64,000 nt of DNA from Bacillota bacterium (GCA_013540605.1 JABVCK010000001.1:278340-342339); one strand, 5' to 3'; shown: positions 56,178 through 62,132, counted from the first letter of the stretch. A program made the numbers and translations. Notes: generated by a model not told the origin, from the sequence alone.

Positions 56178-56651
56178 TTAGGAAGCGTTTACAGCTAATT
56201 TCTTGTTTCTTTCTATATAATTGGTCAATTCAACATCCTCTTTGGGTATTAAAATTCCGGCTGTTCTATACCCTCTTGATCCTGGATAGAGGTTTATATA
56301 AAACCTTCCGAATCTTTTTTTGATTTCACAAGTTTCGTAACCGGTAACAAGATTTCCTTGTACTCTATATACTTCATGTATAGACAAAATCAATAAATTG
56401 AATCTATCAAAATCTATTTTAGTGTATACAGAGAGCGTATTGATTAAATCCTCTTCATTAGTAACCAATAAATATGAGTAGCGAGTTCCACGATATTCTA
56501 GAGTTTCTAGGCTGCTAAGAACATCTTCGTCAACGTTAACACCAATAATTTTCGTGCTATATACCGTATATGGTTGAAAACAACTCCCGTAGATAATAAA
56601 ACAAATAGAAATTGCCAATAAAATTCCGATAGTCATTATTATTGGTTTCAT
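56178..56651 (-). CDS. Hypothetical membrane-anchored protein
   Basis: N-terminal TM, plausible coding composition, RBS-like gggagg upstream. Confidence 0.55.
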   Translation of the reverse strand: MKPIIMTIGILLAISICFIIYGSCFQPYTVYSTKIIGVNVDEDVLSSLETLEYRGTRYSYLLVTNEEDLINTLSVYTKIDFDRFNLLILSIHEVYRVQGNLVTGYETCEIKKRFGRFYINLYPGSRGYRTAGILIPKEDVELTNYIERNKKLAVNAS

Positions 56652-57112: not shown

Positions 57113-57445
57113 CTAAAGCAAATTATGTCCGTATTTTTTAGAAAGATAGGCGTACTCATCATAGTTATAGAAAACGATTTTGTTGGATGTACGGCAGTAC
57201 GGTACTATTTTCTCTATTTTTTTAAGATTAACTATGAAGGAACGGTGGGTTCTTGCAAAGTATCCTTGATTAAGCATGACCTCCATGTGCTCAAGGGATT
57301 TATACGATACATATTTTTCCTGGTACGTATGAATAACCCTTTTTCGCTGGATGGATTCAATGAACAGAATATCTTCGGGGTTTATTAATACACATCCTTC
57401 AGTTGTGCTAAGGTCGATTAGCTGGGATTGCTGCATAAACATCAA
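57113..57445 (-). CDS. LytTR-domain DNA-binding protein
   Basis: INPEDILFIESIQRKRVIHTYQEKYVSYKSLEHMEVMLNQGYFARTHRSFIVNLKKIEKI. Confidence 0.8.
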   Translation of the reverse strand: MMFMQQSQLIDLSTTEGCVLINPEDILFIESIQRKRVIHTYQEKYVSYKSLEHMEVMLNQGYFARTHRSFIVNLKKIEKIVPYCRTSNKIVFYNYDEYAYLSKKYGHNLL

Positions 57446-57513
57446 CCTTCCTCTCAGGCAAAACCGCTATTACCTGTAATCTGAGGTCTGCAGCGTATTT
57501 GAACATTAAAAAA

Positions 57514-57595
57514 GTTTGGCAGCCTGGCAATCATGGCTTGAAGCTGTAGACCCATGGCTTTGCGTCCTTGCCTTTCGGCAAGTTTGCCTTTACAA
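57514..57595 (-). ncRNA. Cyclic di-GMP-I (GEMM) riboswitch, copy 1
   Basis: Minus strand AAAGGCAAACTTGCCGAAAGGCAAGGACGCAAAGCCATGGGTCTACAGCTTCAAGCCATGATTGCCAGGCTGCC. Confidence 0.9.
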
Positions 57596-57642
57596 AATTA
57601 TCACTGTTCTTCTATACCTATAAATTCCTTTTCTGCTTATAA

Positions 57643-57668
57643 GACGTTTCTAAAACAAAAAATGTTAC
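57643..57668 (-). promoter_or_regulatory. ECF-sigma-type promoter P1
   Basis: Minus strand GTAAC(AAC)-N17-CGTC: gtAACattttttgttttagaaaCGTCttata. Confidence 0.7.
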
Positions 57669-57812
57669 GCTTTTTTGGAAAATTTTCCTCTTTATAATTA
57701 AATTTGTACATGGTTCTCAGAGGATATTTGTTAGTTGATAAGTTATCCTTTATTCCCATGATTAGTATTTAATGGTATAATTATGCCAGAAAACCTTTTT
57801 GGAGGGGGCTTC

Positions 57813-58382
57813 ATGGAAAACTCAATTACTAAAGAAGAATACGTTGCAGCCTTCCAGAACATATACGCTCATTTATACAGAACGGTTCTATATATTTTAA
57901 AAGACCGACACCTGGCTTATGATATCGTCCAGGAGACTTTTATCAGGGGATGTAAAAAAATCGATACTTTGAACAATCCGGACAGTTTCAAGCCCTGGAT
58001 AAACAGAATCGCTATCAATATAACTTATGATTATTTAAGAAGGACTAAAGAGACTAGTATTGAAGATATTAATAAGGTAATTCAGCTTGAAAGCATTTCT
58101 TCCGGTATACCGGACAGCAGTGTTGAGAACAAAATCTTAAATCACGAACTCAGCAGTAAAATAAAAGACGCTATTTGTTCGCTGGATGAAAGTCATTCAC
58201 TCATTCTGGTCCTGAGGTTTTATTGCGAGTTGAGCTATAATGAAATAGCCTCGGAACTGGGCATCGACCTAAACGCAGTTAGATCGAGATTGTACAGGGC
58301 TAAAAACCTGCTAAGGCGCGAACTGGCAAACAGCGATATCGCAAGAGAATATTTCGAAGGTGTGAAGGCAAATGAAAAATAA
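57813..58382 (+). CDS. ECF-type RNA polymerase sigma factor
   Basis: HLAYDIVQETFIRGCKKID...INRIAINITYDYLRR...YNEIASELGIDLNAVRSRLYRAKNLLRREL. Confidence 0.93.
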   Translation: MENSITKEEYVAAFQNIYAHLYRTVLYILKDRHLAYDIVQETFIRGCKKIDTLNNPDSFKPWINRIAINITYDYLRRTKETSIEDINKVIQLESISSGIPDSSVENKILNHELSSKIKDAICSLDESHSLILVLRFYCELSYNEIASELGIDLNAVRSRLYRAKNLLRRELANSDIAREYFEGVKANEK

Positions 58383-59119
58383 AGGCCAGATACTCATGAA
58401 AGAAAGCCTGGATGCTGTCATAAACAGCCTCCCCGGCCCCCCGGAAGAGCCGGATTGGACTGCCCTTTTATCTCAAGCTGATGAGAACAACGGGCCTAAA
58501 AAAAACTGAAACTAAAAAGAATTTCTGGAGGACTAAAAACATCTATGCGGCAGCATCTATCCTTTTGATTGTTACCTTGCTTATATCCTTCTGTACTACC
58601 ACCAGTGCAGATAATGCTTTATTCCAAAGCGTTTGGTTCCGAGCTCAAAAGAATATAGGCAGCATTTTCAAACTCAATACGGAACATAAAATCAATAGCA
58701 ACGATATAATTCAGGGTGATGAGGATAGTAATATTGATGAATTGCACACCACAGACATCGGCGAAGCTGAGAAAATAACCGATGGAATAATAGCCTTACC
58801 GGAATATATTCCGGATGGGTTTGCCCTAAAGGGAATATCCATATATAAATCCGGCGGTAAGGTGCACAGCATTTTGATTGAATATGACAATACCGACGGA
58901 CAAATCTTAAAACTCAGGGAAAGCATCATTTTGGAGGGTAATACCTATTCAATAAATTATAAGGAAGATAATACTGATATGACTGAATTTGAAGACGATG
59001 GAATAAAATATGTGATTATGGAGTTTGATAATGGAACTGCAAAACTTGTTTGGGACAAATATGGTATTAACTATATGTTTACTGGTCGGAGTAAAACCGC
59101 ACATCGCTCCATGTCCTGA
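58372..59119 (+). pseudogene. Anti-sigma factor split by a frameshift at A8 (58372-58509 and 58481-59119); DUF4367-like sensor domain
   Basis: 46-aa N-terminal ORF ending GPKKN*, then TM (NIYAAASILLIVTLLISFC) and LPEYIPDGFALKGISIYKSGGKVHSILIEYDN in the +1 frame. Confidence 0.7.
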
Positions 59120-59447
59120 TAGTAGTCCATGACGAGCCCTCCTTTTTCTGTAACTCAACCACCACCCTTACTTCCTCCACCGGCCTATAGGTCTCGGTAC
59201 TGCCTTCTATTCCGACATTTCCATTCCCATAATCATTCAATCCTACATACCATACCATGATAAGGTCAGCTTCACCGGTTGGCACTGGTACAAAATTCAA
59301 ATCGGATTTAGCGTGATAATCCTTTACAGAATTCTTTAACTGTTTGAAACCCGGTTCAATTCCTGCAGCATATCCTGTATCATAAGCTAAAGTAACGAAT
59401 AACACTGCCAGCAATGTTAGAGCAATACCTTTTCGTAAATTCATCAT
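59079..59447 (-). CDS. Small secreted protein of unknown function
   Basis: Signal peptide MNLRKGIALTLLAVLFVTLAYDTGYAA; RBS gaaagggg. Confidence 0.75.
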   Translation of the reverse strand: MMNLRKGIALTLLAVLFVTLAYDTGYAAGIEPGFKQLKNSVKDYHAKSDLNFVPVPTGEADLIMVWYVGLNDYGNGNVGIEGSTETYRPVEEVRVVVELQKKEGSSWTTIRTWSDVRFYSDQ

Positions 59448-59485
59448 AGGTTATCCCCTTTCTATAATTTAATTGCTATCTACAG

Positions 59486-59511
59486 GACGGATAAAAAACA
59501 AAAAATGTTAC
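59486..59511 (-). promoter_or_regulatory. ECF-sigma-type promoter P2
   Basis: Minus strand tgtAACattttttgttttttatcCGTCctgt (AAC-N17-CGTC). Confidence 0.65.
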
Positions 59512-59537
59512 ACCGTTTTTTAAAAAAATTTTTATGT

Positions 59538-59608
59538 CATAGTTAGCGCAAAAAAACAAAAGGCTGTCGGGAGCCTCCGGTATGGTAAGCGGCTAAAGTA
59601 ACCGATTT
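59538..59608. repeat. Unassigned structured element, copy A
   Basis: ggctgtcgggagcctccggtatggtaagcggctaaagtaaccgat; homologous to 62003-62096. Confidence 0.7.
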
Positions 59609-59714
59609 TCCCTCTTTCCCCATTAATTTTAATAAAAATACAATAACTGGTTATAATAAAATGTACTATCTGTACATTTTGCACATATTATGCTAATATG
59701 GAGGTGAAAGGAGG

Positions 59715-60140
59715 ATGACTATGTTAACTGAACGTAATCTCACTGATGCTCGCAAAAGTTTCTCGACCTTATATGATGAAGTATTCAATACTTTTAAACC
59801 TACTATTGTTACGCGTAAGAAAACTGAGGAAGTTCTGCTTCTCCGTGTTGACCTGCAGAAGATGCTTCTTCGCCACTTTTCTTTAAAGCCTGAGGTTATA
59901 GCTGAAGATGATAACTCTATTACTTTAACTGTTAATGAACTAGAAATCTATGCTAATGCTAATACTATGGAAGAAGCTGTACAAGAATTAATTAACGACT
60001 TAAAACAATATGCTCAAGATTATATACAACGATCTCAATTATTTTTACATTCGCCCAACCGCCGTGCCCATTTCCCTTATGTATTGCGAATAATGTTATG
60101 TGATAATGACGACGAAATTAGAGATTTACTGGAGTTATAA
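59715..60140 (+). CDS. Antitoxin-like protein (Phd/YefM-like N-terminus, HicB-like C-terminus)
   Basis: TERNLTDARKSFSTLYDEVFNTFKPTIVTRKKTEEVLLL; ITLTVNELEIYANANTMEEAVQELINDLKQYA. Confidence 0.65.
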   Translation: MTMLTERNLTDARKSFSTLYDEVFNTFKPTIVTRKKTEEVLLLRVDLQKMLLRHFSLKPEVIAEDDNSITLTVNELEIYANANTMEEAVQELINDLKQYAQDYIQRSQLFLHSPNRRAHFPYVLRIMLCDNDDEIRDLLEL

Positions 60141-60142
60141 TA

Positions 60143-60367
60143 TTGCCACCGAAATTCAAAGACCTTAAAAAATACTGTGATAAAAATGGTTGGGTAATGA
60201 TTCGCAACACAGACCATTGGTACTATGAAAAAGTTTTAGTCGACGGGACTGTTCTGCAGACTAAAATTAGCCATTCCACACATAAAGAAATTCCCAAGAA
60301 CGTCTGGGAGTTTATCCTGCGAAATCAATTAAAGATCTCTGAAAAAGAATTCTGGAATAATTTATAG
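60143..60367 (+). CDS. HicA-like mRNA interferase toxin candidate
   Basis: NGWVMIRNTDHWYYEKV...SHSTHKEIPKNVWEFILRNQLKIS; abuts antitoxin gene. Confidence 0.65.
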   Translation: MPPKFKDLKKYCDKNGWVMIRNTDHWYYEKVLVDGTVLQTKISHSTHKEIPKNVWEFILRNQLKISEKEFWNNL

Positions 60368-60369
60368 TC

Positions 60370-60655
60370 CTTGACACTAAAATTTATTCCTATCTTCACA
60401 CTGCAGGGAATGGTATCAACGGGACGGTGTTGGTGTCAGCTACGCCTTTGCCATATGCCAAATATGTTAGTTGTCAACAACTCCGGCCCCTGTCATCCGT
60501 TGTGATTTGTGTTTGTCAGACCAGAGGTTTGTCGCCGGCTTCCTTTAGATTATTCGGCCTCACGATCGACACCCTTGCCCTTGGCTATGTGCTTGCCGCT
60601 ACAAGGCCGCACTCGGGATTTGCACCCGTTAGACTGCGCCCATGCCCGGGCGCAC
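60370..60655 (-). mobile_element. 5' fragment of a bacterial group IIC intron (intron RNA domain I region)
   Basis: Minus strand GTGCGCCCGGGCATGGGCGCAGTCTAACGGGTGCAAATCCCGAGTGCGGCCTTGT...GCCAAGGGCAAGGGTGTCG...AAAGGAAGCCGGCGACAAACCTCTGGTCTGACAAACACAAATCACA; 3' boundary uncertain. Confidence 0.8.
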
Positions 60656-60663
60656 CTATAAAG

Positions 60664-60687
60664 AAAAACCAGAAATCTCTGGTTTTT
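60664..60687 (-). terminator. Terminator of secreted-protein gene and probable intron target
   Basis: AAAAACCAGA-gatt-TCTGGTTTTT-C on the minus strand, 8 nt before the intron GTGCG. Confidence 0.85.
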
Positions 60688-60697
60688 CAAAGGAAAT

Positions 60698-61459
60698 TTA
60701 TTCTAATTTATATTTAACATTACTAGGATCGTAGCCCTTAATAACAAATTCTCCGATAATTTTTTTCCCGTCTTGCGCATAAACGGGAATGATTCTGTCT
60801 TTGCCGATATTTTTTTTCTGGCTCTGCCAAGCTAAAGCTTCTTCTGGAGTTTGTGGCACAAAATCTCCTTCTAAGTCAGAAGCATATACATATCCAATAG
60901 TTCCATCGATGCTCCTTGCTTCGATAAGTTCTGGATCATAGCCAATTGCATCAGCCTCTATCCCATTGCCGTAGGTTTGCCCATTATTATTCACATTGAA
61001 TTCATTTATGGTTTTGCTCCCTGCTGAAGTGCTAGGACTTCTGTAAGTGCTAGTTGTTACATACCCGTCTCCGTCGTATACCCTTGAAGATCCTCTACTG
61101 TAATAGTTACCACTTTGCTTATATAAATCGCCTCCGCTTGAAAAGCCCACACAAGACACGCTTGAGTATATCCAGTCCGTAGAAGAAACAAGAGTTCCGT
61201 TATTATCAGCATATAAGCCACACTTTACACCAAGATAGCCTGCAGGGACACTGCCTGATGATACACGACCAACATAGGTTCGTGCTTGAAGCCCTCCAAG
61301 TCCTGATGAGTAATCCATGATCTCGGCTCGATTTTTATAAGTGTCACCATTCACATCAAACTCTTTGTATGGGCTAGCTGTGTCCGCCGCAAAAGCAGAA
61401 ATTGCTGTAACTAAGAGCAATACTAACACAATAGAAAAAAAAGTAGTCTTCTTGTTCAT
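60698..61459 (-). CDS. Secreted protein of unknown function (253 aa)
   Basis: Signal peptide MNKKTTFFSIVLVLLLVTAISAFAA; RBS ggagaaattaaag; start 61459 preferred. Confidence 0.85.
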   Translation of the reverse strand: MNKKTTFFSIVLVLLLVTAISAFAADTASPYKEFDVNGDTYKNRAEIMDYSSGLGGLQARTYVGRVSSGSVPAGYLGVKCGLYADNNGTLVSSTDWIYSSVSCVGFSSGGDLYKQSGNYYSRGSSRVYDGDGYVTTSTYRSPSTSAGSKTINEFNVNNNGQTYGNGIEADAIGYDPELIEARSIDGTIGYVYASDLEGDFVPQTPEEALAWQSQKKNIGKDRIIPVYAQDGKKIIGEFVIKGYDPSNVKYKLE

Positions 61460-61773
61460 CTTTAATTTCTCCTTCCATTTCCAATATATTATATTTATGG
61501 CTATTATGTCAGCTACTATCAAATTATGCCCATACATATTTTACCAGACCTGTGGTTTCTTAAAGTTGTTTATTAAAGTTGTCCAAAGCAGTCTAGGTAG
61601 TTACTAACAGAGTTATAGCCTTGGAAGTTTTTCTTAATCCCATAATATTTATTCCCTTGTTTTTTACTCTCATGCATTAGAATCTCGTAGTTGTAGCACT
61701 TGTCTTGTCCACCAATAGCCCATATTCCGTATAGTGATAACCTTTTATTCTGTAGTATTTGGAACATTAAAAA

Positions 61774-61856
61774 AGTTTGGCAGCCTGGCAATCACGGCTT
61801 GAAGCTGTAGACCCCATGGCTTTGCGTCCTTGCCTTTCGGCAAGTTTGCCTTTACA
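61774..61856 (-). ncRNA. Cyclic di-GMP-I (GEMM) riboswitch, copy 2
   Basis: Minus strand AAAGGCAAACTTGCCGAAAGGCAAGGACGCAAAGCCATGGGGTCTACAGCTTCAAGCCGTGATTGCCAGGCTGCC, nearly identical to copy 1. Confidence 0.9.
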
Positions 61857-61953
61857 AAATTATCACTGTTCTCCTATACCAAAATCTCTGCTTGAGCTTG
61901 AAAAAATCCCAATAACATATAATTTTCCCGTTAAGTTCCTTTTCTGTTTATAA

Positions 61954-61979
61954 GACGTTTTAAAAGCAAAAAAGGTTCC
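61954..61979 (-). promoter_or_regulatory. ECF-sigma-type promoter P3
   Basis: Minus strand ggAACcttttttgcttttaaaaCGTCttataa (AAC-N17-CGTC). Confidence 0.7.
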
Positions 61980-62002
61980 AATTTTTTGGTAAATTTTCAT
62001 AT

Positions 62003-62096
62003 CATAGTTAGAGCATCAAAACAAAAGGCTATCGGGAACTCCGGTATGGTAAGCGGCTAAACTAACCAAGGGAGTGAAAAACAACCGATAGCCTAC
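62003..62096. repeat. Unassigned structured element, copy B
   Basis: GGCTATCGG...CCGATAGCC 9-bp stem enclosing a conserved core shared with 59538-59608. Confidence 0.7.
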
Positions 62097-62132
62097 TATA
62101 TATCTTTAGTTCGGGGATGTATATGGGATCGT

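Follow-up and report, generated by a model that had tools for sequence, protein, structure and literature searches.

An ECF sigma locus with three matching promoters

We examined a 64,000-nucleotide (nt) stretch of DNA from a Bacillota bacterium (GCA_013540605.1 JABVCK010000001.1:278340-342339; hereafter the window, with positions counted from its first letter) and, within it, the region 57113-62100, which carries a gene for an extracytoplasmic function (ECF) sigma factor, an adjoining anti-sigma gene and three similar minus-strand promoter motifs, P1, P2 and P3. P1 and P3 each lead into a riboswitch of the type that senses cyclic di-GMP (c-di-GMP). The locus was compared with that of a relative from another genus, G001. 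Its main features are as follows.

57113-57445, minus strand: LytTR-only DNA-binding protein of 110 residues, downstream of P1 and its riboswitch (PF04397, 1.4e-21)
57495-57618, minus strand: block conserved between P1 and P3 (96.8% identical to 61755-61880), with the aptamer, outer arms GAACA/UGUUC and a T6 run
57514-57597, minus strand: c-di-GMP-I riboswitch downstream of P1 (RF01051, 83.9 bits; RF03167, 73.2 bits)
57666-57643, minus strand: P1, ECF-type promoter, AAC-N17-CGTC, with a T-tract after AAC and an A-tract upstream
57753-57781, plus strand: sigma-70-type promoter-like site of the sigma gene, TTCCCA-17-TATAAT with TG before the −10 (a consensus match only)
57813-58382, plus strand: ECF sigma factor of 189 residues, with sigma-70 regions 2 and 4; region 2.4 reads DYLR (D73-R76)
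58372-58509, plus strand: 5' portion of the anti-sigma gene, coding for the cytosolic N-terminus and ending early, at a stop that follows an A8 run
58481-59119, plus strand: remainder of the anti-sigma gene (transmembrane segment and DUF4367), in the +1 frame, without the ortholog's last 15 residues
59079-59447, minus strand: small secreted protein of P2, 122 residues, lacking about 42 C-terminal residues of the G001 ortholog
59509-59486, minus strand: P2, ECF-type promoter, AAC-N17-CGTC; at the orthologous locus of G001 this position is conserved and reads AAC-N17-CCTC
60698-61459, minus strand: secreted protein of 253 residues, encoded after P3 and its riboswitch and without a Pfam match
61775-61859, minus strand: c-di-GMP-I riboswitch downstream of P3 (RF01051, 74.8 bits; RF03167, 67.5 bits)
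61977-61954, minus strand: P3, ECF-type promoter, AAC-N17-CGTC, homologous to P1 (about 87% over 68 bp)

The three motifs, which a first-pass annotation had picked out at 57643-57668 (P1), 59486-59511 (P2) and 61954-61979 (P3) as AAC, 17 nt and CGTC in T-rich context, are all present, and each has an A-tract upstream of AAC, a T-tract after it and a T-rich spacer. Their AAC −35, spacer in the 16-17 nt range and CG-containing −10 are those of ECF-dependent promoters, and their dependence on the adjacent sigma factor is predicted. Against 1000 dinucleotide shuffles, the bare AAC-N17-CGTC motif occurred three times in the region where 0.235 occurrences were expected (P = 0.002), and the form with the T-tract, AACNTTTT-N12-CGTC, three times where 0.002 were expected. 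Across the whole window, however, the bare motif was found 9 times compared with 3.9 in shuffles, and by itself it is therefore weak evidence. Perfect fits to the extended pattern in the 3.35-Mb genome numbered exactly four: P1, P2 and P3 themselves and, on another contig (C35), a second copy of P1. Its matches with up to two mismatches did not rise above a reversed control genome-wide. A CGTC-type site at C35:236 lies upstream of a gene for a secreted GH26-domain protein.

The sigma factor has only regions 2 and 4 in about 190 residues, as ECF (group IV) sigma factors do (TIGR02937, 93.2 bits against a cut-off of 42.9), and its open reading frame (ORF) is intact. No AAC/CGTC site was found on the plus strand before its own gene, whose transcription probably depends on the housekeeping sigma factor.

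The −10 element changes together with the sigma factor

Among 60 relatives searched for orthologs of the window sigma factor, one close ortholog was found, in G001 (48% identity); a search of public genomes with the same protein returned only distant ECF factors. G001 has the gene order of the window: sigma factor, an intact anti-sigma factor of 254 residues, and, convergent with these, the gene of a secreted protein that shares 53% identity with the P2 protein. Upstream of the latter gene stands GTAACATTTTTAATAAATTTTCCCTC, an AAC-N17-CCTC site (pattern GTAACATTTTT-N11-CCTC), and a second CCTC-type site nearby, GTAACATTTTTTGCCTTAAAACCCTC, points in the opposite direction; these two are the only perfect CCTC sites in the G001 genome. 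Conservation between the two genera is limited to the A-tract, AAC, T-tract, spacing and −10, while the flanks have diverged.

Region 2.4 reads DYLR in the window sigma factor and EYIK in that of G001. For Thermoanaerobacter tengcongensis RpoE1, which uses the promoter tGTTAC-N16-CGTC, the −12G of the CGTC −10 is recognized by the aspartate of DXXR (PMC3397946). The change from CGTC to CCTC along with D to E is the pattern that co-variation would produce, in one correlative instance.

Paralogous ECF modules have −10 words of their own. Contig C17 holds a second ECF/DUF4367 pair with a divergent AAC-N17-CGAC site, and C35 a third ECF gene, cut short beside an insertion sequence (IS), with a divergent AAC-N17-TGTG site upstream of a paralog of the P2 protein. 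TGTG-type sites number exactly three in this genome (before an M23 peptidase gene on C12, a secreted-protein gene on C33, and the C35 site; control 0). In G001, contig C54 (L161 3918-9345) has two copies of an ECF-linked module with a secreted P2-protein paralog and AAC-N17-TGAG promoters, one of which adjoins an intact ECF gene. In one copy, an apparent deletion has joined the beginning of the ECF gene to the last part of an anti-sigma gene. All of these modules have in common an A-rich upstream stretch, the AAC −35 and the T-tract, and differ in the −10 word. Passages of PMC6767563 and PMC6056542, both citing Gaballa et al. 2018, describe the T-tract after AAC as a known ECF selectivity element. 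Two loose-pattern promoter searches gave mostly background outside the sigma locus.

Because the G001 locus keeps the parts, its −10 changes with the DXXR residues, and the paralogs have their own −10 words, the reading of P1-P3 as ECF promoters, which the first-pass annotation had drawn from the AAC/CGTC signature, and their assignment to the neighbouring sigma factor are well supported by sequence comparison.

Riboswitches in the P1 and P3 leaders

Both aptamers proposed downstream of P1 and P3 were confirmed, with scores well over the RF01051 gathering cut-off of 35 bits. A covariance scan (cmscan) named both c-di-GMP-I-GGC (RF03167), the top clan match by E-value. We rejected this identity: both aptamers score more bits with RF01051, and at the key base they have A (GACGCAAA), as RF01051 does, and not the G of the GGC model (GACGCGAA). 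Where that variant has G for A in GACGC(A/G)AA, the window aptamers read GACGCAAAGCC. They also resemble c-di-GMP-I (GEMM-I) riboswitches in sequence and structure, including GGCAAAC and the 3' arm, and differ in being preceded by an ECF-type promoter. We conclude that both are ordinary c-di-GMP-I aptamers, predicted to bind c-di-GMP and to control the gene downstream.

Unlike several other riboswitches of this genome, neither aptamer is followed by a canonical terminator; by inspection, each has instead a T6 run on its 3' side and, in both copies, outer arms GAACA/UGUUC that could pair to extend the closing helix, P1 of the aptamer, over this run. Neither folding nor a scan revealed a terminator-based expression platform common to the two leaders, and neither leader showed a platform from which an ON or OFF sign could be read.

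The genome has nine riboswitches of the c-di-GMP-I clan and 13 GGDEF domains. Among these riboswitches, an ECF-type site with a T-tract stands upstream of those of P1, P3 and the P1 copy on C35 only. In a rough scan, most of the other clan members had sigma-70-like sites upstream and the P1 and P3 aptamers had none; a promoter scan gave a weak TTTATA-16-GATAAT site at 57624-57597 (minus strand). One c-di-GMP-I aptamer elsewhere in the genome (C33:104997; L009 1501-1608) has AGCAAAC in place of GGCAAAC, a change that may correspond to the G20A position of c-AMP-GMP riboswitches. A further c-di-GMP-I riboswitch (L011 8138-8720) precedes a gene for a LytTR-only protein and lacks an ECF-type promoter.

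The genes that follow differ in part from the first-pass annotation, which had a LytTR regulator and then a secreted protein after each riboswitch. The LytTR gene is present after P1 and the secreted protein after P3. P1 leads to the LytTR gene only, the next notable minus-strand ORF (56178-56651) lying about 460 bp beyond it. After P3, the riboswitch is followed by a leader of ~310 nt and then the 253-residue secreted protein; a LytTR gene was sought there and rejected, with no tblastn match. P2 leads directly to a small secreted protein, as proposed, and that protein is truncated at its C-terminus.

Two alike blocks with different surroundings

P1 and P3 are alike in only two blocks, a promoter block of 68 bp and an aptamer block of about 124 bp. 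P3 has roughly 50 nt more than P1 between the two blocks, and the downstream genes are unrelated. The C35 duplicate (L011 14202-17667) repeats the P1-riboswitch-LytTR-sigma block with 97.4% identity over 1090 bp; its sigma factor is shortened to about 60 residues, and beyond it lie an IS and then a second ECF gene, likewise truncated.

A related pair was found in a third genus (G003), where a P1/P3-like promoter, GGAACATTTTGATGCCAAAAACGTCTTATAAGCACAAAAGGAACTTATAG, with a 16-nt spacer precedes a c-di-GMP-I riboswitch. It matches P1 at 30/32 positions over CGTC and the leader start, and its alignment scores of 54 (P1) and 61 (P3) compare with shuffle maxima of 32 and 28. G003 also has a sigma-70-like site, GAATGAGATATAATGG, which follows the ECF-like site and is nearer to the aptamer. 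The physical coupling of an ECF promoter to a c-di-GMP-I riboswitch on one leader is real at P1, P3 and the P1 duplicate, and its conservation is narrow. We suggest tentatively, and with more doubt than confidence, that promoter and aptamer form a two-block cassette copied before unrelated surface-related genes in this bacterial family, through which an envelope signal and c-di-GMP would control these genes together. In searches of the open-licence literature, we found no direct precedent for a c-di-GMP riboswitch transcribed from an ECF promoter.

Proposed control and alternative explanations

We consider it likely that P1-P3 are read by the sigma factor at 57813-58382 and that the P1 and P3 transcripts are set further by their riboswitches. 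Judging from its family, the DUF4367 anti-sigma factor would hold the sigma factor at the membrane until an envelope signal arrives, and the released sigma factor would transcribe outward-facing genes from the three promoters. P2 would drive its small secreted protein directly, without a riboswitch step, whereas transcripts from P1 and P3 would start about 60-100 nt upstream of the riboswitch, so that the LytTR regulator (P1) and the secreted protein (P3) would require active sigma factor while c-di-GMP would set their output further. Such two-input control on one transcript is plausible. The 'AND' reading of this logic is a hypothesis, and 'sigma AND NOT c-di-GMP' would serve equally well.

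Several observations weigh against this reading. As duplicates, P1 and P3 do not count as independent evidence, and part of their similarity reflects descent. G003 has no close ortholog of the window sigma factor (best 32%). The coupling was not seen at the G001 sigma ortholog locus or at the G001 riboswitches checked, and a strict promoter-riboswitch pattern, of limited sensitivity in that its spacing misses P3, matched no other of 391 genomes. The proposed sigma/anti-sigma pair at 57813-59119 is present as an ECF factor and an adjoining DUF4367 transmembrane protein, but the latter, intact in G001, is frameshifted here at the A8 run near 58500 (CCTAAAAAAAACTG, 58480-58540), which could be a mutation, a site of slippage bypass or a sequencing error. 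The 15 residues missing from its end and the roughly 42 missing from the convergent P2 protein, both relative to G001, are consistent with a single deletion at about 59080, by which both genes appear to have been cut. Given the frameshift, the sigma factor may be poorly restrained in this strain, or the system may be decaying. Finally, up to 17 first-look candidates for ECF-type sigma factors in the genome make cross-recognition possible.

One alternative is that P1-P3 are real ECF promoters but that another ECF sigma factor of the genome uses them too, or is their main reader, the neighbouring one being a decaying relic whose signal coupling is lost. The truncated second sigma copy on C35, the damage to the anti-sigma factor and the P2 protein, the G003 promoter in a genome without a close sigma ortholog and the −35 common to all modules would fit such a history. 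The intact ORF of the window sigma factor would not, nor would the distinct −10 words beside the paralogous sigma factors or the change of G to C in the G001 −10 that accompanies D to E and R to K in the ortholog, and we regard this alternative as unlikely. We similarly doubt that the riboswitches work independently of the sigma factor, on transcripts that arise mainly from other promoters with the ECF site as an auxiliary: the sigma-70-like stretch in G003 and the weak site at 57624-57597 point that way, but the promoter block is the only conserved block of P1 and P3 besides the aptamer. It is still less probable, indeed very improbable, that P1-P3 are alike only through segmental duplication, with an incidental AAC/CGTC match and genes that use other promoters. 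Extended similarity does join P1 with P3 and P2 with P3, and the nine bare sites in the window and the background level of genome-wide near-matches agree with this explanation. Against it, conservation between genera is confined to the promoter elements within diverged flanks, the motif type recurs beside three different ECF genes, and the rough scan placed no sigma-70-like site upstream of the P1 and P3 aptamers.

Other features of the region

Between P2 and P3 lie a PHD-like antitoxin gene and, next to it, a small ORF with a weak match to HicA, together a possible toxin-antitoxin pair (59715-60367, plus strand), and a group II intron D1-D4-3 fragment (60473-60569, minus strand; 39.3 bits). 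An element that resembles a hairpin, GGCTATCGG...GCCGCTTACCATACCGGAG...CCGATAGCC with T-rich DNA after it, occurs upstream of P3 and P2 (62003-62104 and 59553-59603) and of an ECF-type promoter on C33 (L082 1002-1101). The copies upstream of P2 and P3 had no Rfam match at E up to 10, and the element is probably a duplicated terminator of a cupin gene.

Relation to known systems

The locus resembles the ECF regulons of Bacillota (Bacillus subtilis SigW/X/M/V; T. tengcongensis RpoE1) in its AAC −35 core (TAC in RpoE1), downstream T-tract, CGTC −10, spacer of 16-17 nt, DXXR motif of region 2.4 and envelope or secreted targets, and in having a membrane anti-sigma factor encoded next door, intact in G001 but frameshifted and truncated here. 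It differs from them in that two target transcripts open with a c-di-GMP-I riboswitch, the sigma gene lacks an AAC/CGTC site of its own, and the anti-sigma factor belongs to the DUF4367 type, with a frameshift in this copy. Two inputs likewise meet on one transcript in tandem-riboswitch logic gates (e.g. PRPP/guanine, PMC5912903); here, unlike in those gates, the inputs would be initiation, through the sigma factor, and the leader RNA. Overall, the arrangement is unusual but not alien: the ECF module looks ordinary, and two of its targets are reached by way of c-di-GMP riboswitches.

If the proposed control is true, extracytoplasmic sigma control and c-di-GMP sensing by RNA, which are usually studied apart, would be joined on one transcript; the system is compact, and either input can be changed in vitro. 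Paralogous ECF sigma factors occurring naturally in the family share a −35 and differ in their −10 words (CGTC, CCTC, CGAC, TGTG and TGAG), which makes them useful for the study of −10 specificity and includes a natural D-to-E / G-to-C pair.

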